Assembly: GCA_012976225.1 (NCBI GenBank)
Contig: JAAVVG010000019.1
Location: 1-64,000 of the forward strand
Direction of reading: 5' to 3'
Source: Golubevia sp. BC0850
Taxonomy: Eukaryota > Basidiomycota > Exobasidiomycetes > Golubeviales > Golubeviaceae
Length of the DNA: 64,000 nucleotides
How positions within the stretch are numbered: the stretch's first letter is position 1; each line of letters starts with the position of its first letter. Position numbers and translations under genes: made by a program. Shown piece by piece: positions 4,261 to 56,713 of this stretch. The notes under the pieces are model-generated. The model saw only the letters and a program-made list of their open reading frames with translations. It was not told the origin of the DNA and made no database searches.

Positions 4261-4804
4261 GTGATGCGAATGCGGGTGAGTGTTCAAATTTCAAGATTCT
4301 CCCTCGTTATCATGCTCACCTCACTGATTTTAGCTATTGAAAAATTAGGAGGAATCCGCTTTACGATAGTTTCCCAAAGCCCAGCCTTTGAAGAAATTGA
4401 AGAAGGAAACAGGTTACGGCTAAGATTCTTCAGCTTGGTTCCAACTCTTTCCCTCTCGATTGCTCCAGGGGAGTGGAGAATCGTAATCTACTCATGAGAT
4501 TGAAGTCTCTGTCTCTCTAATGACAGGCAAGAAGCTCCTAGACCCGGTGAGTGTGAATTGAAAGGGTAATTGGGAAATGCAGAGGAGAGTCATTAGCCAG
4601 AGGATGATAATCTTCATCGGCTTGGGTTGCAGAGTATGAATGAAGAGCTTTGAAGTCTGTCTGGGTCTCTATGAGAACAAATGGGGAAGTGAAGGGGAAC
4701 CCTTGTTTGGAATCTTTCTCCTCTTGAATATTTAGTACTCAATTCTCTATCTTTCAAATGAATTCTACATATTGTTGAAATACACCAGCTCTTTTATCTT
4801 CTGT

Positions 4805-6105
4805 TTACATTTTGAGCCAGAATCTCGTGTCGTTTGGACTTTCATCGATTTCATCCCAAGGGTGGACTCTTTCTACTACCAGCTGCTCAAGAAGCCTACC
4901 ACACCCTCTTGGAGTTTGCCAACAGCAACGGACTCAATCCAGCCTTGACTTTCACCCAACACGTCGCAAAGATGGCTCAACAAGAGTCGTCTTCCCCATG
5001 AAGATGCTCAGCAACACCATCCGAGGTCTGACGTCTTCCCAAGCCAGGATGATCTTTGTAGGAGCGGTCCAGCCAATCATGTACTACGGTGCATCGGTGT
5101 GGTGGTCAGGACTGTATAGGACAGAATGGAAGAGGAATGGTGGATCGAAACAGTTGATGAACAAAGGTCAAAAGCCTCTGGCGGCCAAGCTGGGGAAAGC
5201 CCATCGGGAAGGCCTCCGCAATGTCATCCCATGCTATCGGACAACAGCAACTGAAGCTCTCGAAAGAGAAGCAGCCATCGCTCCAGTGATAGTGCAGCTG
5301 GACTACATCCGAAGAAGAGAAAGCATTCGGCTGACCAGACTCCACACATCTCACCCTCTCCTAGCAAGAGCCTACTCCTCGCAGATGTCACAGTATTCTC
5401 GACCCCAGAATCAAGCAGCAACACCACCCATCCGCTTTGGTCCAGCAGCCAGAGCCAACAAGAGACCTAGGTTCACCACCCCACTCCAAAACCTCGCGAT
5501 CCACTTGGATTGGGTCCCTGGACACACTGACATTGAAGGAAACGAGAAGGCGGATCAACAGGCCAAGGATGGGGCCAAAGGGCAAGCAACCTTTGGGAGC
5601 ACAAGTACGAGACCAACAAACGCGTTTGCAAAGAGGGAATCAAAGAGGAGGAGAGAACTGGATTGGAGAAAGATGTGGGAGAGCAACACAAAAGAGATCA
5701 GAGAAGACTCGTACAGGAAATATGCCATCCAACCGCCATCCGGCATGCCTCAAGTGGCAAAGAAAGTACTACAGTCGGTTGGTCCAAGCAAGAACTGGCC
5801 ACGGAGACTTTGCAGTCTACCATGACAAGTATAAACACAAAGAAGCGAGAAGAACCTGCCCTCACTGCCTCTCTTCTCCCACCTCCAACACTCACCCTTT
5901 CCATTGTGCCTCCCTGTCTGACAGTGCGAGCCTCAGGGTTAAACAATAAAGGAGAATGACTGTCTGTGCAGGAGATCCTGGGACTCGAAGAAAGGAGAAT
6001 TGGCATTCTGAATTTCATCAAAGCCACCAATGCCTTCCACCAACTGAAAACGCCTAAGAATGAAAAAAGCGATGGACCAGGCCGGAACTGGAGCTGAAAG
6101 TGCAA
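4805..6105 (+). mobile_element. LINE (non-LTR retrotransposon), 3' part with RNase H
   Basis: Plus-strand readings in several frames match the end of a fungal LINE ORF2 with an RNase H domain (Tad1/I-like). Near 4940 there is ALTFTQHVAKMAQ and near 5020 RGLTSSQARMIF..AVQPIMYYG..VWW, the thumb region after reverse transcriptase. At about 5508-5575 DWVPGHTDIEGNEKADQQAK is the C-terminal RNase H motif (W.PGH..I.GNE.AD..AK). A CPHC...H..C zinc-knuckle follows near 5858-5910. The terminal block IGILNFIKATNAF lies at about 6000-6035. The catalytic reverse transcriptase core and ORF1 are missing, and frame changes occur within the rest. It ends about 25 bases before the right arm; I see no poly-A tail. 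Confidence 0.85.
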
Positions 6106-6320: not shown

Positions 6321-6764
6321 TGTCATATCTGCCCCCCCTCCTTTTCCTTTTCTGGGACTCCTCCTTGGAGGTGCCTGTCACAGATCCTTGGTACCCAGGA
6401 CCCCTTTGTTCTTCCTTTTGTCCCCATGTCTCTTTGTCCTTTGTTCCCTTGCCCCTGTTCCTGTGCTACATTGTTCCAACCTTTGTTCCTAAATCCCTTT
6501 GTTCTTAACTCTCAAACATATATAAAGCACTCCCCAATTGTACATAGATAGTTCCTCATCTGATATTGAATTCCTACGTCCTTTCTACCTGCTCAAGTTC
6601 CTTAGTCCCCTAAGTCAAGTCTCGACCTCAAGTCTTTGCCACTCCACCCTTAGCCTTTGCCACCAAGTTCCCAACGCTGATTCCCAACTGCCCTCAGCCT
6701 TTGTCAAGTCTCAAGCCTACCTCCTTAGCACTCTACCTATCTTCTACTAGTTAACCCCGTTACA
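6321..6764. mobile_element. Possible solo LTR
   Basis: A 444-base segment begins TGTCATATCTG and ends CCCCGTTACA, the TGT...ACA ends usual for LTRs. It contains a U3-like stretch with repeated CTTTGTTCC words, then TATATAAAG near 6520 and a C/T-rich R-U5-like part. The reverse complement begins TGTAACGGGG, common in fungal Ty3/gypsy-type LTRs, so orientation is undecided. No five-base target duplication is obvious and no internal domain is present, so at most this is a solo relic. Confidence 0.35.
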
Positions 6765-7087: not shown

Positions 7088-10000
7088 CTACAATCTCCGC
7101 AGACCGTAGTTCTTCAGTATCTCATTTGCTCTGTCCACCTTCTTGTCTCCCCGCCTATCTCGATCCCCTTCCAAGAGCTCTCCAAGACTGTTAGGAGATT
7201 TGAAAACCTCATCCCTTCCAGCCCCATTTTTCGGGAAAGCAATCACATCCCTGATACTCGGAGTGCCGAGCAGTATACTCAAGAAACGATCAAAACCAAT
7301 TGCCAGACCTCCATGAGGGGGCGCGCCACAACGAAGAGCTTGGAGAAGGTGAGAGAACTTTGAAGTCATATGAGGTGGTAGCTGGAAGAAGAAGGAGACA
7401 CGAAAGAAGGAAGAAGGAAATCAGTCCGGTCAGTTGGAAAGGGAATTGAATTGAAAGAGTTACCTGCTCTTCTGGTCCCCTAGTTTCTCTTCTTGACTCA
7501 CCTTCAGAACCTTACTCAGAACCAACTCTTGTAAATCAGCATCGTGAATTCTAACACTTCCGCCAGCGATTTCCATTCCATTAAGGACTAAATCATAATG
7601 TTGACCTCTAATCTTGCTTAACTTTTCGTCATCCAATCTACCATTCTCGGCACCTACCGAAGATCGCAGAAGTTCGAGATCTTCAAACATAGGAGAAGTG
7701 AAAGGGTGATGAGTCGAAGACCAATTGCCAGCCAGGTTCAGATGTTTTGAATCTGGATCATCTTTAGTGAAGAGAGGGAACTCGGTGATCCACAAGAAAT
7801 GAGGATCCGGTGAAATCTTGAGAGCCCCTGGGAAGATGCAAGAAGGAAAAGAGGAATAGATACAGACATTGTTAAAGAGAAAGGAGGCGGAGTTCAGTGA
7901 TGTTCATCAAAAATGAGAGGCATCAACTTCAAATGATACAGAACGAGAGGTTGGAGTTCTCTTCCTCTTCCAAACACCACTCACCTTTCTCAAGCAGCTT
8001 GTCAGACAATCTCAACCTTAAGTCTCCAATCTTCGTGCTTCCACCATTCGGAGGATTCTCTCGTCTGCCGACAAAGACATACGAGACATCCAAGTCTTCA
8101 GCTGCCTGGCTTTTCTGGATCTTTTGATCTTGAGCTTGAATTAAGGAGCTTCTTCCATCTTCTCCCATCATGAGTGAGCTTTCTCTCAAAGCTTCAACGA
8201 TCCCAGAGTTCAAACTTTCAACTTCAATCTCGCTGTTTGACGTATCTTGATCTATCGATTGCAGGATGGAGCGGAAATTGTGTGATTTCTTGAGGAGAAG
8301 AGAGGTCAAAACGTGAGGATTTGAGGTGGAAGATTTGAATTTCTCGAGCTTTTGATTCGAGAAAGGAGTAGAAGGATCAAAGGGTCAGCTGTAAAGACCT
8401 TTGATCTTCCGTTGCGCTTTCAAGCTTCTGTTTCCAAACTCACACCCGAAGGTTTCCCATCTTTTCCAATCAACAAGGTTTCCAACTCCTTGTTGGTAAG
8501 TAAACCTTCTTGACTCGTAGGATTGTAAACCAGAAGCTCAAGCGATTCTGAAGGTGAAGAATCCAATTGCGAGCTTGAAGAAAGAGAGCTGAGAATATGG
8601 GGTGTTAGATCGAAAATCTAGTAGGAAAGGAAAGCGAAGAAAGAAGGTCAGAGAGCAATGAAGAGTGAAGGATAGATGGTGAGCAATTCGATAAGAACGG
8701 GAACTCACTTTCAGACCGAATCGAGTATCTGGTTTATCAGATCCATACTATGAGGAAACGAAACAGAGCCAAAATATCAAGTAAGTCAAACCCATCATGA
8801 ATCATGGTCTGCTCAACCAAATCCTAAACTCACAATCTTCATCGCCTTTTCATAACTCATAACTCTGAATTCCTTCTCCAAAATTTCTCTCCCATTCATC
8901 CCAGTTTCCCACAAAGTCTTAATCAATCCTTCGACAGTTCTTCTAATTTCTGAACCTCCGATTCTCCAATCTCCTTCTTTGCCCTTTGCGGGTTCAGAAG
9001 GTCCGCCACTAACGAAACCAACTTCCAAATCGATCTGGGTGAATTCAGGTTGTCTATCTTTCCTTAAATCTTCATCTCTGAAACACTTCGCGAATTGAAA
9101 GTATTTGGAGACGCATCCCGAGGAGATGAGTAATTGTTTTGGTTGTTGAGGAGATTGTTGAAGTGCGTAGAATTGAGGTTGAGCTGTCGATTCAATTTGA
9201 GTGGAAGAATTGTTGATCCGAGTAGGGACCAAAAATTCTCTAGCACCTTCAGGAGTGGAAGCTAAGAGAATTGGTGTTTCTACTTCTGTAAAGCCTGAGA
9301 GAGAAGGGCAAGGGAAAGGGAAATGATGGCTGATCAGTATTGGCCAAGCCTCTGAGAAAGAAAGGGGGGTCCACTCCTCTTTTGCTTGACATGGAAAAAC
9401 ATCTTGCACGTTCTTCATGTTCGTGGTCAGGCTCAGTGCTCCGCCTGAAGTTGTCGACCTTTTCACCTTACCAACAAGAGGAAATGAAACTCACCTAAAC
9501 CATTCAAATAACTCCTAGCAGCAAAAGAGACTTTAGATCTGACCTTCAAATTCCTGCTCAATTCCTGCCTTCTCAGATCTAGATATCGATATTTAGATCT
9601 CAAATCTTCATTTGGCTGAGAAGATATCAAAGATAGCAGATGAGGATTTGAATCGACCGAGGAGATGAATCAGAAAAAGTTTGGAATTCCGAATTCAGGG
9701 AGATCCAGAGAAAAGCAGTCCAAGTCCAAGCAAGGGATTTGGCAAGAGATGAAAGAAGGAAAGGTCAGGAAAGAACAAACACAAGGTGAAGAAGGTAGGA
9801 AGGTAAGCGACGTCAAAGAAACCCACCAGACCAAACTTTTCACTGGGTTGGAAAGGTAATTCCATAGAAACCGGATTGAGACATTTGTAATCTTGGATCT
9901 GGATTTCTAGAGAACCTGAAGGACCGAGATCCTGAGAGAGAAAGAGAGAGAGAGAAAGAAAGAGAAAGAGGAGTTGAAGAAGGCGGGAATGCGGGTGCAT

Positions 10001-10990
10001 GGTTTGCAAAAGATGGGGAGAAATGAGAGATAGGTCCGGAGAGAGGTATGGTTTGGGAAGGTGGGGAAGAAAGGGAAAGAGAAAGAGAGTGGAATGGCCG
10101 AGGGGAAGAAATGGGAAAGGGGGGTGAATTAAAATAGAAGTGAAGAAGAAGAAAAGTAAGGTGAGGTGAGGTGTCAGTAGACATTTCGGAAAAGAGCTCC
10201 AGATAGGAAGAAACCTAAAATGATCAATCCAGGTCGAGTGAGTACAAAACCAAGCGGATTTAGCAACAATTCGTCTACTTTTCTTAAGAAAGACGTTTGA
10301 AGTATCGTCCTCAATAACTAGATCGAAGAAGCATGTCATTGAGTTCTTCATGAAATTAAAAACTGACTCGAAAGAAGGCTTTGGTAAGATCCATACTTAC
10401 CATATTCCAATCACCTTTAGGTCTTTCCTTCACGATCCCTTTAATCCAAACCACACTTTCAGCTTTCAAACTCATGATCTCTTCTTGAATCTTTTCTAAC
10501 TTTTGATTCTCATTCACATCTTGATTCTTGCTTCTGATAAATAGCTGAACCACACCAGTTTCATCTCTCAAAGGAAAGAAAATTAGAGTTTTGGAAATCT
10601 TTCGAGGTGGTAGGATCCAACCTGTTAGAATTACCTCTTGGTTCAACAGTGAAAGAGATAGGGAAGATGACAGATGAGTTGGAGTTGGAAAGGCGCCTAA
10701 GAGGAAAGAGAGGAGAGGAAGAGAAAATGAGGATGAGAAGAAAAGAACGAAGAAATGAGAAGAGATTGGAACGGGAAACGAAAATGGAACTGGAACTGAC
10801 CATGATGAGGTTTGAGTTTGAAGAAGGAAGAAGTTGAGTTGAACCGATAGTTTACACGATTGAAATTCTTGAAACAGGAGATGGAAATCCAAGGTAGATG
10901 TTCGGATTGAAAGTTGAAATTTGAGATCCAGGTGGATGATGTTCTTCTGCTGGTGAATCGAGTGGCTTGAGAGAAAGTCGTACGTCTCAT
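7088..10990 (-). CDS. MSD1: Aspartyl-tRNA synthetase, mitochondrial type
   Basis: It charges tRNA-Asp with aspartate, most likely in mitochondria. Ten exons close in phase: 10990-10801, 10696-10401, 9931-9827, 9615-9495, 9294-8834, 8749-8711, 8617-8444, 8348-7985, 7827-7502 and 7381-7088, giving about 789 residues. The start is followed by an Arg/Ser/Thr-rich, acid-poor leader ([19 protein letters not shown]) typical of a mitochondrial presequence. Next come the OB-fold anticodon domain ([12 protein letters not shown]), class II core blocks [19 protein letters not shown] and motif 2 [21 protein letters not shown], then [11 protein letters not shown] and motif 3 [15 protein letters not shown]. 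The protein is longer than yeast Msd1 (about 658) because of polar stretches in the insertion domain. The acceptor at 8348 is unusual (AAAG) and is the least certain junction. It may share a promoter with the divergent gene starting at 11312. Confidence 0.93.
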
Positions 10991-11311
10991 TTATAGTCGA
11001 GTGGAAGGCAAGGAGAGGAGAGTACCCAAAGATAGGATCAAATCCTGCACTCTGAAATAGAATAGAATAAGAATAAAGGAGGAGAAAGGAAGGGGAGAAG
11101 AAGAAGATGGACTACATAACAGGATTCTGGAATTCCAATCTCGATCTTCTAAGTTCTCGCACAGCACACCCACTCCTCAATAATTCTCATTTTCCTAACG
11201 AGTCTCGCCTATAATCCTCTCAACAAAAGTCGACTATCATCTACGGGACAGAGTAGCAAGGAGAGTCCAACGTAGGCGAGAAGAGATAGCCACTAGCGAG
11301 CGTATAGAGAG
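10991..11311. promoter_or_regulatory. Divergent intergenic region MSD1 / TRS65-like
   Basis: About 320 bases between two opposite start codons, presumably holding both promoters. It is A/G-rich on the plus strand near 11050-11120. No clear TATA box or known site stands out. Confidence 0.4.
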
Positions 11312-17798: not shown

Positions 17799-19886
17799 AT
17801 GGCGAATCCTATTCCTACAACTGAAGAGTTCCCATCTACTTCAACTCATCAAAGGAGATCAAAGAGTACTGCTACCTCGAGTGGGAACACAACCGGTGGG
17901 AATGGCAAAAACCTGTTAGAAGCCAAGGTAGTGATCTTGGGTACACAAGGTGAGTAGAAAGTCATGCCTTTCTTAGATCGGCTCAAGTATGAGAGAAGTG
18001 GGTTTTAGTTGAGGAAAGACTGAGATTGATGGGCGTCAGAGAGGCAGGGAGAGCCTGAAGCATGATGTGAATGATACACAGTAAAGAGAGGGGTAATCTC
18101 AAGAAAGAGAGCGGAAAGATAGCTCCGCTCTTTCAACGATCAGTTTCTCTGTCGGAATCAGCGATATTTGGTTTTTGAGGTTTTTGGATGATCTCGCAAA
18201 CGTAGAAGGTACTAGTTGTCAAGTTGGGAGAGGTTGAGGCCACCCCCTGTCTCCTCTTGGCTCTCTTGACTACGACGTTCTCTTCCATCGATAGTCAAAC
18301 TGCTACGATGGAGATGTAAATACCAGTCAGAGAAGAAACGGAAGCAGCGCTTCGGGAGGCAAAGATTGAGGGGAGGGGGAAAGAGTGGATAGGGGGTCGG
18401 CTCAGATCTGAAGCTGGAAGTTCATCGCCTATGATCAGTCAAATTGCCTATGGGAATCTCACTTGAAACAGCTCAGTATCTCGAGAACTGTCCATGGAAG
18501 ACTTGGTGTGAATAGGGGGGGGAGTGAGGGGTCAAAGAGGTTGTGAGAGTTTCAACTTGGATTGCTTCTTGAAGATTCATTCGAACCTTTCAAACTAATC
18601 AACGAACGGTTTACGCTTCTTCCCATATGTTTGGTAGAGTGGTAAATGGAGCTAGCTTTAGATCTTCAAGACACTCTCCTATGTGAACTTCTGAGAATCG
18701 AGCGTGCATTCTGATCAATTGTTCTTCTTTCCTCTCCCTCTCTACTTCATCTACTTTCTCTTCTTCTCAAACTTTCTCTATATGTTCTTCTCTATATCGC
18801 TTCAGGTGTTGGCAAAACCTCATTAGTCCATCGATACACTTCCGGACACTTCAACCCTTCTTCCATCCCGTCAACTATTGGTGCCTCATTCCTCGTGAAG
18901 AAACTAGTGGTAGATGGTGTTAAAGTCAGGCTACAGATTTGGGATACTGCTGGTCAGGAAAGTGAGTAGAGCCATTTCACCTTTGCTTATCTGTGAAAGC
19001 TTCATTTCACCTTAATTTCCTCTCCACTGACCTTTCTAACTCGTTCCCTACTCCAGGATTCAGATCAATGGCGCCAATGTACTACAGAGGTTCTTCAGCG
19101 GCTCTGATAGTATATGACATCACTTCCCTTCAATCTTTCTTGGACGTCAAAACTTGGATTGAAGAATTAAGACGTAACATGAAGGATGATTTAATTATGA
19201 TGATTGTAGGAGCCAAAAGTGATTTAGAGGAGAAGAGAGAGATCAGTTTGGAAGATGCTAGGCGACAAGTCGGAGAGTGGATTTGGGGAGAGAGGAACAG
19301 TGGGGAAGATGATAAGGCAGATGGTACTGCAACTACAAATGGAAGAGACGGGAGAGGTACCTCGAGATTAACGAATACTCTGAGTGGTTTGGGAAGTCTG
19401 AAAAGAAGTACTAATCATAAGGATGAAACTTTAGGAGGTCCAAATTCTCCAACACGGAATAAAGATTCAATGGTCGAAAATTCTACAAACTCAAGATCCA
19501 TTCCAAGCACTTTTCTTTCTTCAAATCAAATTTCTTCTAACTCTTCAAACAACATGACATCTTCTTCAGCTTCTGCTCACTTCAACAATTTAGATTTCAT
19601 TCCTCCTAACAATGCTAGCGATTTATCTTCTCAAATGGTTCAAATCTCTGAAGTCTCTTCAAAAGAATCTGTAGAGAGTATTGAAAATATCTTTTTGAAC
19701 TTGACCACTAAGTTGGTTGAGAGGAAGACTGAGATCGAAAGAGAAAGGAGAAGGAAGGAAAGAGAAAGCATTTTAGTTGGCGATGATGGTTATGAAGGTG
19801 GAAGAGATAGAGATGGCAATGCGGCTGGAGATGGAAATGGTGGCGAGGGAAATAGCAAAGATGGGAGAGGTTGGAGCTGCTGTTAA
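17799..19886 (+). CDS. Rab-family small GTPase (Rab5/22-like) with a large insert
   Basis: Three exons close exactly in phase (17799-17949, 18806-18961, 19057-19886), giving 378 residues. A polar N-terminal extension of about 40 residues precedes the P-loop GTQGVGKT (48-55), which is split by the first intron. TIGASF (74-79) is switch I, WDTAGQER (96-103) is switch II, and MAPMYYRGSSAALIVYD is Rab5/Rab22-like. The nucleotide-specificity motif reads AKSD (155-158) instead of NKxD. The G5 motif (VSSKES, 302-307) comes only after an insert of about 120 Ser/Asn-rich residues. The C-terminus ends WSCC, a typical double-Cys geranylgeranylation site, so the protein should associate with endomembranes. 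Rabs are normally 200-220 residues. The first intron (856 nt) is far longer than others in this window. Confidence 0.9.
17950..18805 (+). other. Unusually long (856-nt) first intron of the Rab gene
   Basis: The intron begins GTGAGT and ends TTCAG, and interrupts the P-loop after GTQ. I found no open frame or clear structured RNA in it. It could hold regulatory sequence or a small RNA that cannot be seen by eye. Confidence 0.8.
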
Positions 19887-29086: not shown

Positions 29087-29847
29087 TCACTCCAGATTTT
29101 GCAGGTCCCAGAACACGATACTAAAGAAGGGAGCATCGGAGTGATTGAGCATGTTTTTGAAGGATTCCCATGGAATCTTTCTAAAAGGACTGTTTGTTTC
29201 TAGACTACTTGAGAATTCGATAGATTGTCTTAGCTTTTCTAGAATGAAGTTGGCTCCGTTAGGTAAGGGAGCTTCCGTCTCTTCTTGAAGAGCTTTCTGC
29301 TCTGCTAGCTTTGAGTGATGGAGCGCTAGCGCGAGATGAGTGAAGACAGCACTGGTGTGAGTCTGTAGAATGAAGTTATCAGTTGAGAGGTAGCTTCGCC
29401 GTTGCTCGTGCAATTCAATCCGAATGCAAAGAAGATAAGAAGACTCACTTCACGACTTTGATCTTTCGTTAAAGCTGTGTCTATGTCTTCAACTGCAGCC
29501 TTGAATTGGCCACCTCTTCTCAAACTGAGGCTTCTAAACAAAAAGAAAGTTGGCTTGAATGCTTGGAATTGGAAGCAATGAACTGAAGGTGAAGCAGCAT
29601 CGGGATTCGGGAGGTAAGGTTCAAGAGATGAGCTCATGACTTCTAGAAAGGAGGCTTCGAGGTTTTTCAGAGTATCAACTATGATACACTCTAATCCTAA
29701 AGATGCTGGACTCCTTCATTGAATATTGAACAGACTCACCTCCGTACAGATCCGTTCTGCCGTCTTGAAGTCACATCTATCCAATGCAGCCTGAATTCTC
29801 AAAATTGCATCCTTTTCTGCTTCGATCCTTGAGAATTGATTGTCCAT
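29087..29847 (-). CDS. Small TPR-like protein
   Basis: It starts MDNQFSRIEAEKDAILRIQ on the minus strand, with CDFKTAERICTE reading as a helical-repeat helix. The next coding block contains FKPTFFLFRSLSLRRGGQF, then KAAVEDIDTALTKDQS, a clear TPR motif. After an intron (GTGAGT near 29450 to CTACAG near 29364) comes THTSAVFTHLALALHHSKLA, a further TPR-like helix, and the gene ends near 29087. The first intron is ambiguous: the best donor (29739) is out of phase with the acceptors I can see, so either a less usual donor is used or a frame error exists. TPRs bind proteins; the partner is unknown. The start codon lies only about 10-40 bases from that of the sulfite oxidase on the other strand. Confidence 0.55.
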
Positions 29848-29888
29848 TCTGTTCTTATATGAGTAGATCTGGAGTGGGAAATCCAAAG

Positions 29889-31881
29889 ATGGCGAAACGG
29901 ATGCGAGTGGTCGAGAAAGAAGAGGCAAAGAGGAGAATTCAGAAATTCAAGTCGAGAACATCGAACTACACTCAAATCATGGAATTTCATCAAAAGCATC
30001 CTCTAAATGTAGAGACAAAGTTATCATCTCTGACATCTCACTTTATAACTCCGACCAATCTACTCTTTCACCGAAATCACGATGAAGTTCCCTTCGATTC
30101 AACCCTTCGACGTCAAGACTATCAAGACTATCAACTTCAACTCTCATTGCCTTCAGATCTCAAGCATAAGCTAGGATGTATTTGGAATTGGAAACAAGAA
30201 TCAGAACTTGAAAGCAAAGGAGAGCAGATGCCTCAATCTTCTTCCTCAAACAATTCATCCTCCACTTGTGATACCCTCAACTTACCTCTCTCTCAGCTCA
30301 AAGACAGTTATCCTCAACAGAGACTCGCAGCTACCTTGGAATGTGCTGGCAATAGAAGGGCTGAATTCAATCAGAACGAAGGCACTGAGGAAGACGATGA
30401 TCTCAAAGCAGAGGGAATAGAATGGGGTCCAGGTGTGTTGGGCTGCTGTGTCTGGCAAGGTGAGACTCCAAATCACATCACTCTCTTTATGATCGAGATC
30501 TAAATAAAACTGGGAATGTAAAACAGGAGAAGGGATAGAACAATGGGGAGAGGTAGCCTAAGTCGATGCTATTGACCTCTTGACCAGCCTAGACTTTAGC
30601 TTTTCTTTTTCTTCTCAACGTATGCGCAATCTCAACTTCCAATCTTTCAGGAATCTCACTTCGATCACTTCTTCTAGATCTAGGACTTCCAGATCCGTAC
30701 TCTGCATCTCCTCCAACTTCAGCTGATCTTTCAACAACGAGGACTTGCTCTTCATGGGCTTCAAAACTTCATGTTCATTTCTTTTCCTCTCAAGAGTCTT
30801 CTGAAGGAAAAGAACTTTTAGGAAGGGAAGGTGAATCTCCAGAAGCCTCACAATGCAATGATCAAATCTCAATCGAGAACTTCGAACTTTCTCATTTTGG
30901 AGCTTCTCTTCCTCTATCGGTAGTTCTGCATCCTCTTTGCAACATCACCTTAGCATTTGGAATGAATGGTCAATCGATAACTAAAGAACATGGTTATCCA
31001 TTAAGAGTCGTAGCACCTGGTTTCGTGGGTGCTAGATGGGTGAAATGGTTGAATCGAATCGAAATTAGAGAAGATGAGAGTGAAAGTTTTGGAATGGCTT
31101 TGGATTATAAGGTTTTGGAACCTCCTCAAGGAGAGGAAGAAAAGAGAGAGACTTGGATAGAGAGAGTCATGGGAAAAGGCAAGAGTGGCGGGAAAGATAA
31201 AGCATTTAGAGAGAAGTTGATGAAGCGACATGGACCGATTATGAGGATGGGAGTTGGGAGTTATGTGGTTTCACCGCAGGAGAATGAAAAAATTGAGAAG
31301 GGAAGTTTGATTAGAGGTTATGCTACTGGGACTGATGGTGAGTGTTTACGTTCTCCTCGACTCGGATTCTCTTACGAAAGTTTCATCTATTTCCGTCTGT
31401 CTTTTGTTTCGATTTAGGTCATCCAATCTCTACAGTATCATACCTTCTAATCTCTACTTCATCTTTCAAAGGGGAAACTCCAACTGAAACTGAAATTAGA
31501 AGCTTTGCCAGGAATCAACCTTTAACATCTTGGAGATCAGCAAACGTCTTACCTCCTGAAAGAAACGCTGCTTCTAAAGCTTGTGGAATCACGAAAGATG
31601 ATGCTGAAGATGAGAGTTCAGGATATAGATGGGCATGGAGATTATGGGACAGAAGAATCCTGGGAGAAGCGGGAAGTGGCAGCTTTCATTTGGTCGTCAA
31701 AGCTGGTGAGTTCTATCTTCACAGAGTCAAGGTAATCTTCATTTTAAATCAACTCCTTCTTTCCATTACTTCGAAAACAGAGACCGAATCTGGGATTGAA
31801 CAAGAATGTGAAACTCCATTCAATGTGAGAGGATTTCATCAGAGAAGTTGGCCGGTCGTCAAAAATCTGAGATACCAATGA
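29889..31881 (+). CDS. Sulfite oxidase-type molybdenum enzyme
   Basis: Oxidises sulfite to sulfate using molybdopterin cofactor, detoxifying sulfite from sulfur amino acid breakdown. Four exons close in phase (29889-30459, 30651-31337, 31418-31705, 31781-31881), giving 548 residues. An in-frame ATG at 29859 would add ten. Family signatures are HFITPTNLLFHRNHDEVP near the N-terminus and LECAGNRR with the cofactor-binding Cys. HGYPLRVVAPGFVGARWVKW ends the molybdopterin domain, and GSLIRGYATGTDG starts the C-terminal dimerisation domain. There is no N-terminal cytochrome b5 domain, so it resembles the stand-alone plant and fungal forms. The C-terminus (LRYQ) has no peroxisomal SKL-like signal, so the location is open. 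A nitrate reductase fragment is unlikely, as no haem or FAD domain follows. Confidence 0.9.
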
Positions 31882-42470: not shown

Positions 42471-44037
42471 TCAACTTCTCCACGTCTTGACTACCAACTC
42501 TAGAAAGGGTTGAACATTGATCCACTTCATGATGGCAATCTTCTCCTTCATATGAGTGACTTTTGGTCTTTCGTATCCTGACAAAAGATCATAAAACTCC
42601 ACTTTTTCAGTTCTCGTTCGTTCTTCTTTCCCAATAATGGATTTCTGAATCATTTGAGGTTTGAATCCTAACATCATTCTCCCAATTCTCTGAGTCTCGC
42701 TTCCAGTCAAGGATTTTCCTCCCAGTAAAATCTCAATGATTCGAGTGATATCTTCACAAGTCATGAAACACTCTTGAGTTTCCGGTTCCATAACTAACGA
42801 GATCACCTTGTCGTCGAAATTGAAGTGGGTTGGAGCGACGTTCTGAACGAAAGCTACGACGACTGAACTACTTGAAGAAGCGGTTTGGGGCCAGCACCTG
42901 AGGTGTTTTCTCCTTTCTTTCAGTTCGGAGGAGGACCAGTTTCCAAAGTGTTCCATCAGTGGTCTCTGTAAGTGTAGGATGGGTAGCTCGACTTGAATAT
43001 GGAAAGTCGTTGCCGGTCTGGGTAGATGAGCTCCGCGGATGCTTGGAGAACTACCAGCAGGAGATGAAGCGAAAGAGGGAGATCGTTGAGGTAGGGGTCT
43101 GATTGATCGAAGAGTAGGAGTAGAAAAGGTTGGGCTTCTAACTTCCCACGCTGGACTCCAATTTCGATCGTCAAATCTTGTGGTTGGGAGATGCTCGAAT
43201 TCTCGCTGAGTCCTTTGTGATTGATTGATTTGGCCAAAAGCAACTCGGACTAAAGTGAAGGAAAGGAGATTAGAGTCAGAAAAGCAGGTCATCAACTGAG
43301 AAGTTGAGAAGTTGAGATGCGAAAAAAGCGCTCACCTGAACGCTGAGGAGACCCAGATCTCTTGAGAGCTTGAGATCTATTTCGACCAGTTCCAAAATAA
43401 TCGAAACCAATTCCTAAACCAATGGGAGTGCTTGGCAACTCTGAGGTAGATTCTGAGGTCCAGCCAGTAGAGCTCGAAGTGGGGCTCATTGTTTCTTCTT
43501 GCTTGGCAGACTTGATAGGCTGGGGCAGGGAAGAACGTCTCGAAGTCAGTTTCTATTCACGAAGTAGTAACTATCGCTTGCTCCACTTTCTTACTCACGA
43601 TTTGGACTTTCAACCCCTCTCTTCGAGACCCGTTGGTGTGTTCTTCCTTCCACTCCATTTGAAAGATGGGAGCTGAGAAGTCAAAGGAGATGGTAGTCTC
43701 TCTGGGTCGGGAAGGAATAGACAATTCCCCACTATCCGTGAACGGGTCAGCTGGAAGAGAAAGGAGTGGACATGGTGAGTGAGATGAGCAGCCCCGGGAG
43801 TTGTGCCGACTCCTTTCCTTAACGCTTCTTCAGGTAGCATACTTCTTCCATCAAGATCCTCTCCAGGATAAAATCTCAATCCAATTCGGCTTCACTGTTC
43901 TGCGGGAACTCAAGCTCACCTTCGTGATCCATCTGAAAGGATTCCACATCGAACCCTAGGCCGTGAGGTTGACGACTGGCAGCAAAGACTTGATCATCGC
44001 TGAGATTTGTCTGGGATGCATTCGAGTGAGAGTACAT
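42471..44037 (-). CDS. Medusa-like (DUF7082) developmental regulator
   Basis: Four exons close exactly in phase (44037-43920, 43750-43599, 43519-43336, 43249-42471), giving 410 residues from MYSHSNASQTNLSDD. Exon 2 has a beta-rich block (TTISFDFSAPIFQMEWKEE). The C-terminal 130 residues match the conserved end of MedA/DUF7082 proteins: DITRIIEILLGGKSLTGSET, then QRIGRMMLGFKPQMIQKS and YERPKVTHMKEKIAIMKW. Family pattern: D.I.LLE.L...F...EKNRIRRNLEG..P.TV..., then PKPR.IEKDVKVF.W. MedA in Aspergillus controls conidiation, adhesion and biofilm genes as a nuclear regulator. Homologs occur in other fungi, so a role in morphogenesis is an inference. The protein is shorter than ascomycete Medusa proteins and has no recognisable DNA-binding zinc finger. 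Confidence 0.7.
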
Positions 44038-44667
44038 TCAGAAGAGCTGTAACTAGGATAGTGTGAAATGGGATTGCTTGAAATGACTTGCAGCACCGAG
44101 CCTGAATCAGCTGTCTTCAAGGGAGGGAAAGACTGAGACTGAGAAAAGAATGGACGAGACAGATTGTGTTGAATTGAAGTCGGTTTTTGATGTTGATGTT
44201 GTTGGTGTTGTTGTTGTTGACGTTGTTGATGTTGTTGCTATTGTTGTTGTTTGAGAGAAAGGTTGTGGAACGAACTTCCATTTCTGCTTCCCCTTCTTCT
44301 TCGAGCAAGCACAAGAAAGCTGTGACGTCACTAGCGCGAACAAGCCCGTCACTTGTCACCCACTAAGTTGACAGATAAAGCTGTGTACTGCCAAAGTGAG
44401 TCAGAGGAAGGGAGGCAAGGTGCCGCAAGAATGTCCGTCCCATCCCAGGGAGGCACGACGCATCGATCGACACGTCGACTACTCGCCTCGCACCACCCAC
44501 CACGTGGCTTCTCAGTCACGCCTCCTCTTCTTCCCCCAGTAGCATTTGTAGATATGTAGACGTGAAGAACATGTAGTTGAATTTGAGTGCTTGAGCAGCA
44601 CATGCGCAATACAAGTGATTGAAGAAAGATCGAGGCCGATTCAGGTTGCTGCCTTCTTGATCGTCCA
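44038..44667. other. Intergenic with GTT-type microsatellite
   Basis: Between two minus-strand genes, so it holds the Medusa-like promoter and the ALG1 3' region. A trinucleotide repeat at 44189-44252 (GTT/GAT on plus, CAA/ATC on minus) lies about 150-215 bases upstream of the Medusa-like start codon. Open readings through it are repeat artefacts. Confidence 0.6.
44189..44252 (-). repeat. CAA-type trinucleotide repeat
   Basis: Imperfect GTT repeat on the plus strand with interspersed GAT, GGT and GAC. Confidence 0.9.
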
Positions 44668-47461
44668 TCATCCAGCAGCGGGTGAGACCGAGATCTCTGG
44701 AACAGAACTTCCGGTTCCATGTCTCTTAATACTCCTTCTGTGTCTTAACTTGACTTTGGTAGATTTTCCACCACCCTCTCTACCAGTCGCAGTTTCCGAA
44801 TTCCATCTATCCCTACTCTCATCTCCATCTCCATCTTCATTCTCTTCATCCTCATTCCAATTGTTCAAAATCTCTCCACTAGTCCTAGGTTCATCCACCA
44901 AACTTTCTCCCAAAACCAAAGTCTTAAGAAGTGCAGTTCCACTCGTGATCCTAGAATGGCGAGAGTTAGGGTTTGAATGGAATTTAGAGACCATTGGACT
45001 TGAAGGTACATCTTCAGCTTGTAATAGTGGTCTAACTACCTTTTTCCAATTCCCACTCCAAGTTGAACTTGGATTTCTTGGTCTTGAGATGTCTTTTTGT
45101 GGACTTAGAATGGGACTTGAGAGCAGTGAGAAAGGAGCAGTGGTGGAGATCGGACTGTTAGGAGAAAAATAACTGTTTCCATAATCTAAATCTCTTGAAT
45201 TAAGCCTTGGACTTGCACTCGGTGAATTGTTGTTACTTGAACTTCCATTCCATCCTAAGATATCGAAAGGTTCTTTCATTTCCTTCCCTAGCCAATTCCT
45301 TTCTGGATGAGTCGCTAGTAAACTTTCCAACTGTCTTGCTAGACCTTCAGCATCTCTGAAGATTAAACCATTCTTGCCATCTTGAATCAATTCGTCCAAA
45401 CATGAGAAATCTAGAGCACAGACTGGCAAAGAGCATCCTAGCATATCTACCACCTTCATAGGAAGATCTAAACCTGAAGAAGAAGTATGGAGAGAGATTC
45501 CAACATCTGCTGAACCTAATAAGACCGGGTATTCTTCACTTTCTAACCAAACTGTTCTTATCCTAACCCACTGCCACTTCTCCTCGATCTCTAATCGTTG
45601 AATCTCTCTTTCGTACCTTTCCTTCAACTCTCCCTTTCCAGTGACGATGATGAGCATCTTCGGAAGTTTTGATGCAGGTTCATTCGGTAAGAGAGTTGGA
45701 GTTCTCAAAGCACCGAGTGAAGGTCTTCTTCCTTTGTTCCTCTCCTGCCTTTCCCGAGCCTCCGAAGCGTTCAGTCCTCCGAAAGAAGAGGATGAAGAGT
45801 GTGATGGTGAATGAGAGAATGGGTTGTTGCTATTGTTTGACGTCGTTGGAGAATCCGAGAATGGAGGCGGAGGAGGTGAAGAAGATGGAGGTGGAGCTGA
45901 AATGTGAGGAGAATTGCGATAGGAATTTCTTGAAGACCTTCCATCATTTGGATCTTTATATTCCGGACTCGAATTGGTTCGACTAGGAGAGGAATTGACC
46001 TCTCTTGCTCTTTTCTCGTATAGACCGGCGGCTCTGAGTAGAAGTCCGAAATCTTCATCGGCTGTCCAACTTGTGGAACTGACGACTAAAGCAGGTCTGT
46101 CATCTCTTAGAATGCTGACCAGCTCAGATTTGGAATTGCCATGACCAGCTTGATTGGAAATTGGATTTCTAGGTGAATATCGATTTGAAGGACTCTCAGG
46201 TCTTAATTCCATACTCTCTGAATCTCTTCTAGAACCTCCATCAACTGAACTGTAATTCCAAACCGAGTTTAAAGGTACAATACCAGTAAAGGGAGTCGTA
46301 TTAGGTAATTCAAACTTCTTAAAGAAGCCATCGGAAATTAAATCAGGCTTCAATTTGAAAGCCAGAGTCTTCATTAGATTGTGAGTCTCTTCAATCGTTG
46401 CCTTTCTGAAATGAGTTGGAGGTCGATCATGTAAGACTAACTTCCTTCCTTTCAATTCCCATTTGAGATTTAATCTTGCCATCATTGCATGAGTAACGAA
46501 AAGATGTGCAAAGGCACTTTGACCGGTTTTCTTTTCTAACCATTCTGCTAATCTGACTAGAGGTGATTTGTCTCCCATTCTCAAGGCTAGAATTGTGTAA
46601 CCTAAGTTATGCCAATCGATTATGACTCGAGACCCTAGAAGGATTGAAACCAGTCTGACTACGAAGAGAGTGGGGAGAGCTGGTGGGGTCTGAAAGACGA
46701 AGGGAGGAGAAGATAGAGAATGAGCATTCTAACAGCAGATTTGAATTGTATGTCCAAGCAAGATTCAAATTTCTTTCGCAGCACCCTCTCATTCATCTTC
46801 CGAGCTCGAAAGAAGAGCTACGAGAGGCAGGCTGAAGTATCAGCTCTTGACCAGAGCCATGTCACTCATCCCTATGAAACCAAATTGCTGGGCCATCCAC
46901 TCTGACTATTATTCTACACACTTGAACCAGAATGACCTCAGGAGGTGGCTGAACCAAAGCAGCGAGTTCCCAAAAGAGACCAGCACTTTGAAGTAAAACC
47001 TTGAAGGGGGCTACAATCATGAAAGCAGCTCTTGGCAATCTACCAATGAACTTAGGCGGAGAAGGTAGATGATGAGTTTTGACTGAAGATCTTCTCAATG
47101 GAGAAGGCAGTCTAGTACCTATTGATCACAATCGAGGAGGAGAAGGGAAGCTGCTGTGAGCTCTTTTGCTTGTTTATCCTTTCCTCCTTGATCCTCTCTC
47201 TCTCTCTATTCTAGAAATTCACTCACCTTTATAGCCAACTATAGCTACTTTCCAACCTTCATTTGCCAGACTCTCTACGTGATAGCACATTCTTGGACTC
47301 CTACCTACATCTCCTAGAACTACTACTGCAGCTGATCTTCCTAATGAACTTCTGCTTGTAGTCTCTGGAGCTCGATATAATGCTACCCAGAGACAAAAAA
47401 AGACTACTAATAATGATAAGATCAAGATTGAACATATTCCTAAAATCAGAGGGACCAGCAT
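44668..47461 (-). CDS. ALG1: ALG1 beta-1,4-mannosyltransferase with large insert
   Basis: Adds the first mannose to GlcNAc2-PP-dolichol on the cytosolic face of the ER during N-glycan assembly. Three exons close in phase (47461-47227, 47118-46922, 46689-44668), giving 817 residues against about 450-480 in the family. An N-terminal membrane anchor (LILGICSILILSLLVVFFCL) is followed by VVVLGDVGRSPRMCYHVESL, then PPALPTLFVV and SRVIIDWHNLGY. The donor-site region LPMKVVDMLGCSLPVCALDF with the following LDELIQDGKNGLIF is clear. Between TADEDFGLLLRAAGLYE and the catalytic C-terminal lobe (MLIIVTGKGELKERYE) sits a Ser/Pro/Asn-rich insert of roughly 100 residues. A further Ser-rich tail of about 190 residues follows the normal end. 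The final basic HRRSIKRHG is unusual. Confidence 0.93.
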
Positions 47462-51184: not shown

Positions 51185-54100
51185 ATGAATAGTGCACCGA
51201 CCTCGTCTTTCACAGACTCTTCAAAGCAACGCCCCGCCCTTCAAACCGAAGAGGCAGAAGCCCAGTCTTCTCGTCAAGGAAGCAGAAGCAAGAACAATAG
51301 TTTCAGCAATCCTTCTACTGCCAAGAGTAAGCTCTTACGTATCCTGAAAAGAGGAACCTCTAACTCCTCAATCAATTCGGAATCAGAGACTAGACACTTC
51401 AATCCTCCTCCAGCTCCTCCTCCCAAAAGTCAAGGATCCTTCACATCACAAGCTAGTTGGAAGGAAGTCTTAGCAAGTGGACTGACAACTCCAAGTTCTT
51501 CGCACTCGACATCGATACCAAGCTATCCCAATTCGATCCCTCTCGGCGACAACAGTTGGACAAGACCTTTTCAGCAGAGACTCGCATCTACCAATTCGTC
51601 CAGATCGGGAATAGAAGGTTCCGCCTCTTCACCTGGAATTCCCCCTCGTCTTTCATCAGGTCGAGAACCTAACAGACAACGTACTTGGAGTGCTTCTACA
51701 GGATCAACTTCGGATCATCAACATCAAACCAACTCGTATCAAACCACCCATTCCTCTTCCTCCTCATCTGGATTTCAGAATAGCCTAAAGAGATTCAACT
51801 CAAGTCTCTTGAGAAGAAACGGCTCTAGGAACTCAGTTCTTTCTGGTGAAACAGATCTCTCTTCTCTGAAAAGTGGACCTGGAAATCACAACAAGGACAA
51901 GGGCGCTGCAAGTCACAGCAACCACAGTTTGGAGAACAAGGAACGTTACGACTCAAGTTCTCAAAGTTCTCATTTGGAACCTCCAAGATCAGTATCTAGA
52001 AACAAGGAGAGAAGTCCAATACCGGATTACGAACTTCAACAGCAATCCTCTATCTCTTCTTCAGCTTCTTCACCTTCTAGAGCTCAATTTGCAACTCCTT
52101 CAACTACTCCAGAGCCTTGGAACAGAGGAAATAGTCAACCCAATTTGGAAATGGCGAAGGGAAAAGAAGGAGAGAGCTCCAATTCTTCCGGAGGCTGGAA
52201 GATGCCATTCGGATCCTCTTCGAAATCCAAAGGGAACCAATCTTTAGAAGAGACTGCTGCTGACAAGGAGAAGAAAAGGAAGGAACATGAAGCTAGAATC
52301 ATGAGCGGCTTGGACATCCTGATGGGACCTCCAAGACCAAAGACCGGAAAGGACAAGAGTTCTTCTCACTCCAACAGTAGTGGCGATAGAGACAAAGGAA
52401 AAGAGAAAGCCGATTCTCCCTCCAATTCGATTCATGGATTCCCGAACGGTGGATCCAAGTCTCAAGGACTTGGGTTGGAGAACGCTCAAGGATCGATGCC
52501 AGGAGGCAGATCGAAGCTAGAAAGGATGATGGGTGAAGACGTACCTCATCAAGCTGGAGGAAATGGCGCAGGACCTTCCTACTCATCCAAGGCTAGTACT
52601 TCTACCTCAGCGATGGCTGGGCCTTCTGGTACTTCAAGAAGTGGCGTTCACCATTCTCATCAATCCTCAACAGCTCAGTCTCCTACTGATCGTTCCAGAA
52701 CGATATCTCCTTCGAGGTCCGATCCTAGGACCAACCCGAATGGAAATGGACCTCCCTCACCTTCAGCTCCTTTCTCTACTCTCCCTCCGTCGCCATCTCA
52801 ACATCACAACTTCTCGCAATCTCAAGGAAGATCTGGCTCTGGAGGTCAGAGCAAATCTACCCAGAGCAAAGCTCAAATGGACAGCGCTTCTTGCCCCGTC
52901 TGCCTGGAACCTCTCTCTTATCGTCTATCGGGAGAGAGGCCTCACGTCATGCCGGTGTGTGGACATGCTCTTCACAACGCTTGCTTCACTGCCGTTTATG
53001 GTCCTCCAGAGGCTGTCAGAGTCGCTCAGGCGAAAGGTGGACACGGAGATCAGTCGAGTGCTCCTGGGATGTGTGGGGTCTGCAGGAGAGCTATCATTCT
53101 CGGCGATAGCGAAGGAAGGAGACACAACAGTGAGTAGGCCTTGATAAACGTCTCTGAACGACTTCCCCAGCCGAGTCCCGCCTTCTCATCTTCCTTTACC
53201 TCCCTTCATCTTCACCCCTTTCTAGAGCTCACTGGTATGGGTTCTGAAGATGGTCCTTTCCCAAACGATGGACCTTCAAACTTTCAAGATGGACCTCTTC
53301 AAAGCGACGACGAGTTCAGCGAAGGCAACAAAGCTCCTAGTCTCAGCTCTCTCACTCCAAGTGAATCTCCGAACCCTCAGAGTAGATCTCATCTTAACAT
53401 CGTTAGACCAGTCATCAAAGCTCGTCCAGAGTATGGAACCATCTATCGCAAGGACAAAACTGGTCAAAACGGAAAACAGAACGTTGTCTGTGTCGTCTCG
53501 ATCGAGATTCCTAGTCGAAGACCTCCACCTCTTCTTCGCTCTGATGAGCCTGACTACGAGAACGATCTCAATGCCGTCAGTCATCATTTAGGAACGATTC
53601 CGGATCAGGAGGAGAACGAGCTAGCTGAGCAGAAGGAGGAGGAACTCAGACAGCAGCAGATGGCTGAGGAACAGGAAAGAGAAAGAGAGGAGTCAGAGAG
53701 GAGTCAGAGAGAACAGCAGCAGCAAGATCAACAGAATCAGCAGCAGCAAGGTCTGGTCTCGCACGCTCGAGAAGAAAGCGAAGGAGTCGACGAGAGTGGT
53801 CCTCTTCCAAAAGAGGCTGGAGCTGGAGAAGAGCTGCGTTCAGCTGAACGCAGCTCTTCTCCTGTCGACCCTGAAGACGCTGGATTCTCTTTCGGTGCCA
53901 CTCCTGCCGCTTCCAAACCTCAAGGACCTTTCCAATCCATCATGGACGATCTCAAGGCTAGGGTGTCTGATTGGAAAGGACACGCCATGGATCACTTTGG
54001 ACCTCTCATTCTTTACGATTTCTTATCGGTTCGTCAAGACACGGTCGTCAGAGAGTTCTACGTCTACCTTTTCAGAGAGGCCCTTCTCTGTGTCACCGAG

Positions 54101-56713
54101 GAGAAGAAGAGAGGACTGGCTCGCTTCATCACTGGAAGTACGGTCTCTGGAACCAGTGGAAGCAGCACTGCCATGCAAGATACCAATGCTAATTCTGGTC
54201 CCAAACCTGCTCTCAAGCTGAAAGGTAGAATCTATCTCAGACACATCAGGAGAATCATGGATTCTAGCGTGGCCGGAGAGCTGAGTCTCAGTATCAAGAT
54301 GGACGACGACAGTCTAGATCACTTCGTTCTTCGTTTCAAGGAAAGGTCGGAACTCGAAACCTGGCAAACCAAGATGTCGGAGCTGGTTCAAGCAAAGAAA
54401 GATCAGAGGAAAGCTAGTCAATTGGCCAAGCAAGCTGTCAGCGCCAGCGTCTCTGGAAACTCTGCCAACTCTGCTACGTCTACCAACGACTCTGTCCGTG
54501 CCGATCGACCTACGACTGGAACATCTCATACCGATCTCAGCAGCACCGTTGACTCCTCTAACGATGGTAGCAAAGGTCCCAGCCAAGCAATCCCACCTCT
54601 ACCTCCTCAAGCTGCTCAACCGCCCTCGACTTCTAGACCTTTGAGGAGCGCAAGCGGAGCTTCTGTTCAAAGCGGCAAGTCTGGATCTGTTCCACCACCT
54701 CCTCCCGCTCCTTCCACCGCACCACCTTCTCCTGCAGCCTCTATCGCCAAGCGTAATGTCAATCTGGCAAAGCAGAAGATTCTCGGACAGGCTCCTCAAG
54801 TTCAAGCTCAAGTGCCACTTCATCAGCAATGGTCAGCTTCAGGTGGATACGATCCTTCCAAAGCTCCTCCAGAGTTGCTACCTCACACTCCTATCGATCT
54901 GGTCCTCATGATCTCGGTTCCGTCTGTCATCCAACAGGCCAATCTGGGAAACAGCAACGTCCCTGGGAACACTGGCTCTTCAGTCTCCTCTTCAGCTGCT
55001 CTCAAACTCAGATTGATTCGCTCAAGCTTGGAGTTTGTCGTTTCTCACATGGGACCAAGGGACAGGGTCGCTCTCATCGCTTACTCAGTAGGAGTGGACG
55101 GAGAAGTTCGAAGGACGGCTCTACTCAACCCTTCGAAACAGCACAGCAGGAACAAGCTGAGAGATTTCATCGAGGGAATCGGAAAGCCTTGGGATGGTGT
55201 CTCTGAAAATCCTTTCCGTGAAGATCTCGCAAAGCTGGGAGGAGCCAGCGACCGAACCGACACTGTCACAGCCGTGAACGTCGGATTGGACATCGTTCTT
55301 CAACGCAAGAGCAAGAATCCAATCACTGGAATGCTCTTGGTGAACGACACTGCAGATGGTCCAAGAAGAGGTCAAATGGATCTGGTCATGGCTCGAGCTG
55401 AAGCTGCAAACGTTCCAGTCCACTGTTTTGGTTATGGAAAGAGTCATGATCCAAGCTCTTTATGGTTGATCTCCAATCACACCAAAGGAAGCTATACGTG
55501 AGTATCTTCGAAGTGTTCTTCTTTCCTCTCTCGGACTGTTTCTAATCTCTCTCTTCCTTCCTCTCTTCTCTACCCTCTCTTCTCTCATCACAGATTCGTC
55601 AAAGAATGGTACGAGCTCCGTGAATGCTTAGCAGGATGCATGGGTTCTCTCATGTCGGTTGCTTTGACTGACGTCAAGATCCACATCTCAGTTCCCTCCG
55701 ACAACCACTTCCGTGTTCGCAAGGTAGCTGGTCCGATGGGCGCCATCGTATCTGCGACAGGCAAGGACGTCGATATCGAGCTCGGAGAGACCAGGTTCGG
55801 TGAGACTAAGGAGCTCTTCGTTGAGCTTGAACTCGACTTCAACGCTCTCGCTCCTCTGCCTTCCGAGAGAGCCAATGGTCGACCGGCTGGATCCAAACCT
55901 CAACCGGGAGGAGGAGGTATCGAACAAGGCAGCGCAACTGATGACTTCATGCAGCGACTTGGACTTCAGAACCTCAACCTAGCCGATACCGAGCCTTTCG
56001 AAGGAAACGGCTTCGAACAGATGATCGAAGAAGTGGCGGTCTTCGAGATCGATGCCGGATACAGAGACGCAGCAACTGGAATCTCTGTCTCTAGGATGAG
56101 CAATCCGTCGATCTTGACAATGGAAGTGGATCCTGTCTCGAACGATCCAATCTCGGAAGGTGCTCCAGGACAGGCTGCCATGCTGGCCGATCCGGTCGTC
56201 ACGAGAAGGAGACTCCAAATCCTCGTTTCAGACATGATGACTCGTAGTCTCCTTTTGGTCTCAAGAAAGAATCACGCCCAAGCTCTAAAGATCCTAACCG
56301 AGACTCGTCGAATCGTCGACACAGTGGTTCAATCGATTCCAGCTCCAGTCCTTCCTTCAAACTCCTCCGATCCTTCTTCTGCAGCTTCCTCTCGTCGAAA
56401 TTCGATGACTTTACAAGGAAGACTAGGCAGTGGAGGTCCTCGAAAGCAACGCGAAGCTCTCAATCTTCGTACCATCGAGAGTTTGGCTGCGATCATCGAG
56501 GATCTTGATATCTTGACGGATGGTCTTGAACAGAGCAAGACCGCTTTCGACAGGGATCAAAGAAACTTCGGAGCTCAACAGGCTATGGTCTTGAGGGATC
56601 AAAAAGCTTGGACTACTAGGTCTGATACCGAAGCTCTTCATTTCACCTACGATAACGGGTCCGCTTACACCGCCCTATCTGCTGCCTTTGCTTCTTTCAC
56701 CGCTGGAGCTTAA
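51185..56713 (+). CDS. RING-PH-VWA scaffold, Ste5/Far1-like
   Basis: Three exons close exactly in phase (51185-53129, 53226-55497, 55594-56713), giving 1,778 residues. The order is a Ser-rich disordered N-terminus with a basic patch (KSKLLRILKRGTSN) that could touch membranes, then a RING-H2-type finger at 568-635. The ligands are C570, C573, C592, H594, H597, C600, C630 and C633. A Gln/Glu coiled-coil stretch follows, then a PH-like domain at about 905-1040 (GPLILYDFLS...REFYVYLFREALL...HFVLRFKERSELETW). A VWA-like domain spans about 1204-1430 (PIDLVLMISVPSV...MGPRDRVALIAYS...ITGMLLVNDTADG) without the metal-binding DxSxS motif. RING, PH and metal-free VWA in this order characterise Ste5/Far1 pheromone MAPK scaffolds. 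That function here is inferred from architecture. The N-terminal serines offer many SP/TP phosphosites. Confidence 0.8.

Follow-up and report, generated by a model that had tools for sequence, protein, structure and literature searches.

The window analysed here is a stretch of 64,000 nucleotides from Golubevia sp. BC0850 (GenBank assembly GCA_012976225.1, contig JAAVVG010000019.1, positions 1 to 64,000 of the forward strand), which holds on its plus strand a gene for a protein of 1,778 residues, probably an Fmp1/Far1-like mating scaffold of a basidiomycete-like fungus. Three long plus-strand open frames of 669, 787 and 403 codons were taken from the frame listing and joined by script at GT-AG introns, giving a gene model of three exons that is predicted from sequence. 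Enumeration of frames and splice sites confirmed the ATG at 51185 and the stop codon ending at 56713, and the introns chosen give the length that the initial annotation had proposed. Intron 1 allowed seven frame-keeping choices (1,745–1,796 residues), from which the one with the most usual splice signals and a CTAG acceptor was chosen. No RNA families and no tRNAs were detected in the 64-kb window.

A RING-H2 finger, a PH domain and a VWA-like domain follow one another in this order in the one protein, the VWA-like domain being recognised from sequence only and close to the Pfam cut-off. All eight RING-H2 ligands (C570-C573-C592-H594-H597-C600-C630-C633) are present as C3H2C3 with the usual spacing, and the pattern arose in none of 2,000 shuffles of the whole protein. 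In a whole-protein Pfam scan, three RING profiles matched residues 569–634 with E=4.2e-4 to 4.8e-3, all under their gathering scores. The same scan placed PH_10 at 904–1031 with 92.2 bits against a gathering cut-off of 27.5 (E=3.8e-26), so that the predicted assignment as a PH domain is strong. The Gln-rich coiled coil of the initial annotation is recovered as a Gln/Glu-rich segment, and of the C-terminal extension claimed there it is the presence that stood, as a tail of about 350 residues read from the translation after the VWA-like domain. Exon 3 alone matched no Pfam family, and the NCBIfam scan returned no families. Nine matches from a sequence search of the PDB with the whole protein (all E>=0.035; eight RING/TRIM-type or similar fingers and one TATA-box-binding protein) were set aside.

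The Pfam VWA profile matched residues 1240–1415 in the whole-protein scan (E=0.002) with 18.8 bits, under the cut-off of 23.8. When residues 1204–1494 were scanned alone the score was 25.2 bits (E=2.2e-5), just over the cut-off, in two stretches, the better of which (1324–1415) spans only profile positions 77–169 of 174. As placed by eye, strand 1 (PIDLVLMI) is followed at the DxSxS position by S1212-V-P1214-S-V1216, and the sole D-x-[ST]-x-[ST] within residues 1196–1430 lies at 1324. On this placement the first metal motif after strand 1 appears to have been lost. The succession of RING-H2, PH and a VWA-like domain without its metal site had been described in the initial annotation as a likeness to Ste5/Far1-type scaffolds, with which both the domain order and the lost first metal motif agree. 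A sequence search of the PDB with the VWA part returned a flagellar hook protein (E=7.3e-4) and two sigma factors, which were deemed chance matches, and no Ste5 chain was among the PDB sequence matches listed for either the whole protein or the VWA part.

Features of the predicted scaffold gene, with positions counted from the first nucleotide of the window
Feature	Positions	Strand	Content	Basis
Exon 1	51185..53129	+	long low-complexity N-terminus, RING-H2 finger	open frame, splice enumeration
Intron 1	53130..53225	+	96 bp	GTGAGT...CTAG
Exon 2	53226..55497	+	Gln/Glu-rich segment, PH domain, most of VWA-like domain	open frame, splice enumeration
Intron 2	55498..55593	+	96 bp	GTGAGT...ACAG, CTAAT inside
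Exon 3	55594..56713	+	end of VWA-like domain, C-terminal tail, stop codon included	open frame, splice enumeration
RING-H2 finger	52892..53083	+	residues 570-633	ligand pattern; Pfam RING matches below gathering
Gln/Glu-rich segment, probably coiled-coil	53606..53752	+	residues about 776-824	read from translation
Linker-helix stretch common to scaffold and Cdc24	53939..53989	+	residues 887-903	BLASTP alignment start at 887
PH domain, Pfam PH_10	53990..54373	+	residues 904-1031	
VWA-like domain	54890..55660	+	residues about 1204-1428, split by intron 2	Pfam VWA; first metal motif missing

Proteins of this build are already in print for other fungi. Fmp1 (C. deneoformans CNF00230, C. neoformans CNAG_07699, N. 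crassa NCU07565) contains PH, RING and vWA domains in a Ste5-like arrangement and has orthologues across Ascomycota and Basidiomycota. Deletion strains of two Cryptococcus species showed almost no cell fusion and that of N. crassa had impaired perithecia, more than 91% of the Fmp1-affected genes were also under Cpk1 regulation, and a fragment with all three domains (735–1690) pulled down the mitogen-activated protein kinase (MAPK) Cpk1 (PMC9790007). BcFar1 of Botrytis cinerea, with 1,173 residues, carries RING, PH and VWA domains and has the orthologues AN5167 in Aspergillus and NCU07565 in Neurospora (PMC4010548). Since NCU07565 is named in both papers, Fmp1 and BcFar1 belong to one family. 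A further paper (PMC3718343) cites Cote et al. 2011 for the presence of one or more scaffolds in basidiomycetes and, Schizosaccharomyces excepted, in ascomycetes, and counts C. neoformans among the species that lack a homologue of Ste5. The view that such scaffolds are restricted to budding yeasts and relatives, on which the initial annotation leaned, is outdated because of Fmp1 (PMC9790007), the Far1-like proteins (PMC4010548) and this basidiomycete citation (PMC3718343), with members in Cryptococcus, Neurospora and Botrytis. The architecture is therefore known in other fungi including basidiomycetes, and the scaffold of the window is a further member, not a new type. We prefer the name Fmp1/Far1-like because Ste5 proper continues to be described as confined to budding yeasts (PMC9790007) and because reciprocal BLAST by the Fmp1 authors did not link Fmp1 with Ste5.

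With Fmp1, compared by architecture only, the protein shares the three-domain set and a long stretch ahead of the domains. The order in BcFar1 is the same, the gap between RING and PH is similar (241 against 270 residues here), and so is the tail after its VWA domain, which ends at 812 (361 against about 350); BcFar1 differs in its shorter length (1,173 against 1,778), in the start of the RING (134 against 570) and in the linker between PH and VWA (65 against 172). Ste5 of S. cerevisiae also has the same order (RING-H2 177–229, PH 388–518, VWA-like 583–787), with a gap of 158 residues between RING and PH, against 270 here, and a far shorter stretch before the RING (PMC10584130).

The closest relative of the PH domain within the genome was sought in the 25.77-Mb assembly of 64 contigs, in which the window lies on contig C10; all counts from these searches are lower bounds. 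The PH_10 profile found two domains, one in the scaffold gene and one in Cdc24 (L001, C22:1460249-1463638), which carries RhoGEF, PH_10 and PB1. The scaffold PH domain aligned with this Cdc24 by BLASTP at 79 bits (33% identity, 156 alignment columns). When the whole protein was queried, the alignment began at residue 887, 17 residues ahead of PH_10, and in Cdc24 this additional stretch falls between RhoGEF, which ends at 156, and PH_10, which starts at 185. The whole-protein alignment scored 80.9 bits against 20.8 bits for the best of 100 shuffles. After Cdc24, the next match of the PH part in the genome had E=0.55, and among the 21 loci returned by the genome PH search Cdc24 reached 81.6 bits, compared with 21.2 bits for the best of the other 20. 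The likeness covers the PH domain and the stretch preceding it, whereas the RhoGEF and PB1 domains of Cdc24 are absent from the scaffold in the Pfam scan. That both PH domains share an ancestor is well supported by these alignments, and the scaffold may have captured the Cdc24 PH domain rather than the reverse. No earlier description of this kinship was found in the literature searched on Far1, Cdc24 and the PH domain. We tentatively propose, as a reading somewhat more apt to fail than to hold, that the Far1/Fmp1 scaffold is a chimera of a RING-VWA protein and a PH domain captured, together with the DH-PH linker helix, from a Cdc24-type exchange factor. Such a chimera would share its membrane or protein partners with Cdc24 and would bring MAPK firing and Cdc42 activation to one address at the mating site. 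The Cdc24-like PH domain offers a testable idea on the origin of such scaffolds and on the reason for the joint action of Far1-type proteins with Cdc24.

No second copy of the scaffold was found in the genome by the searches with the VWA and PH parts, the VWA part matching only the two exons of the present gene that encode it at E<=1. Cote and colleagues, in 2011, reportedly gave a single such gene per genome as a defining trait. No relative was found by sequence search in the genome_contigs or viral_contigs collections. The gene, for which one locus was found in the genome, encodes a long member of a family lightly studied for mating signalling outside yeasts. The genome also encodes a STE3-type receptor (C62:362016-363056, minus strand, matched as two pieces; the search returned no other STE3 locus), a Ste11-like N-terminus with SAM and the start of Ras_bdg_2 (the Byr2/Ste11 Ras-binding domain) and a G-gamma gene. 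The STE2 search gave no match, in the control genomes either, so absence is not shown; a STE3 match without a STE2 match fits Basidiomycota.

By analogy with its relatives, we infer that the scaffold would act in mating in Golubevia. In S. cerevisiae Ste5 the RING and PH domains are implicated in the binding of Ste4, Ste11 and Fus3, and the VWA domain binds Ste7. Pheromone on Ste3 would free G-beta/gamma, which would recruit the scaffold via the RING finger. Its membrane attachment would come from the Cdc24-like PH domain, for which the Ras-binding domain of a Ste11-type kinase may be a further partner. The VWA-like domain would bring a Ste7-type kinase to the MAPK and thereby let the mating MAPK fire at the position of the partner. 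These contacts are modelled for this species on those of other fungi, and for relatives a mating phenotype, a shared regulon and MAPK binding are in print. Docking-site-like motifs numbered 8, against 3.7 in shuffles, with 25 of 500 shuffles reaching 8. A basic amphipathic stretch was seen near residues 40–60, without a shuffle control.

Several observations weigh against the identification as an Fmp1/Far1-like mating scaffold. Membership of the family is read from architecture, not from alignment with Fmp1, Far1 or Ste5. A genome-wide VWA profile search gave no matches, the present gene itself included. Two AlphaFold2 runs without alignment, on the VWA domain plus tail and on its exon-2 part, gave low-confidence models (mean pLDDT 37.2 and 44.9, respectively), and none of the 410 matches in a PDB fold search with the second model had E<=0.001, nor was a Ste5 entry among the best 50 of the 410. 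The alternation of strands and helices in both poor models was much as expected of a VWA domain, and about 42 of these best 50 matches are taken, by their folds, to be VWA-type proteins (Rpn10, inter-alpha-inhibitor, Ku80, integrin I domains and others), which lends weak support. The structure prediction that the initial annotation had proposed as a check therefore speaks neither for nor against the VWA fold, and the PH domain rests on its sequence. Fmp1 and Ste5 are described as remote or non-homologous, with no reciprocal BLAST link and, for Fmp1, a predicted vWA structure that departs markedly from that of Ste5 (PMC9790007). Likewise, BcFar1 is the single BlastP match of yeast Far1 and resembles it in the RING only, and its deletion gave no obvious phenotype (PMC4010548). 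In Neurospora a different scaffold, HAM-5, is described for the same cascade when cells fuse. The N-terminus contains 11 S/T-P sites against a shuffled mean of 14.4 (4, 1 and 1 in the other three segments against 3.1, 5.3 and 4.7), and pheromone-response-like motifs in the window were not in excess (27 against 24.1 expected, 11 against 15.1). A Ste12-domain search of the genome gave no match, and neither did the control genomes, so that absence is not shown.

A protein of this build could instead be a polarity adaptor like Far1, linking G-beta/gamma to Cdc24/Cdc42 for oriented growth without carrying the kinase cascade. We consider this rather unlikely, though yeast Far1 has a Ste5-like domain composition and connects G-beta/gamma to the Cdc42 module, the scaffold PH domain is related to that of Cdc24, and the mould members were named Far1-like from their RING (PMC4010548). 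The binding of Fmp1 to Cpk1 and their shared regulon (PMC9790007) argue for the cascade, and deletion of BcFar1 brings no polarity phenotype (PMC4010548). Both jobs could also be carried out by one protein.

The full set of RING ligands would also suit a ubiquitin ligase that cuts back some protein of mating or polarity, with the PH and VWA-like domains selecting membrane and substrate. The RING-VWA core is reminiscent of plant WAV3-type ligases, to which the VWA part may be akin. We regard such a ligase as improbable, given that no ligase activity is reported for Fmp1, BcFar1 or Ste5 in the portions of the literature covered and that Fmp1 acts as part of the MAPK pathway (PMC9790007). A RING-PH-VWA gene that has lost its part in mating in this species would agree with the absence of an obvious phenotype when BcFar1 is deleted (PMC4010548) and with the lack of an excess of S/T-P sites or pheromone-response-like motifs. 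Three long open exons, the complete RING ligands, the strong PH score and the presence of STE3, the Ste11-like N-terminus and G-gamma argue against such a loss, which we hold to be slightly more improbable still than a ligase.

Elsewhere in the window, four ACAAAGGGA-like motifs, one of them exact, were seen within about 100 bases at 6401-6502 on the minus strand. This ACAAAGGGA-like cluster lies downstream of a plus-strand frame (4779-5825) that has a weak RNase H match and may itself be a retroelement remnant. Pieces resembling aspartyl-tRNA synthetase, perhaps mitochondrial, lie at 7088-11111 on the minus strand, with an OB-fold match in 10359-11111 and the rest read by eye. Part of a Ras-family GTPase (E=3.5e-19) was found at 18966-19883 on the plus strand, and two plus-strand frames at 29769-31417 match molybdopterin oxidoreductase, perhaps from a sulfite oxidase-like gene. 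A DUF7082 protein and a group 1 glycosyltransferase were found at 42474-46728 on the minus strand.

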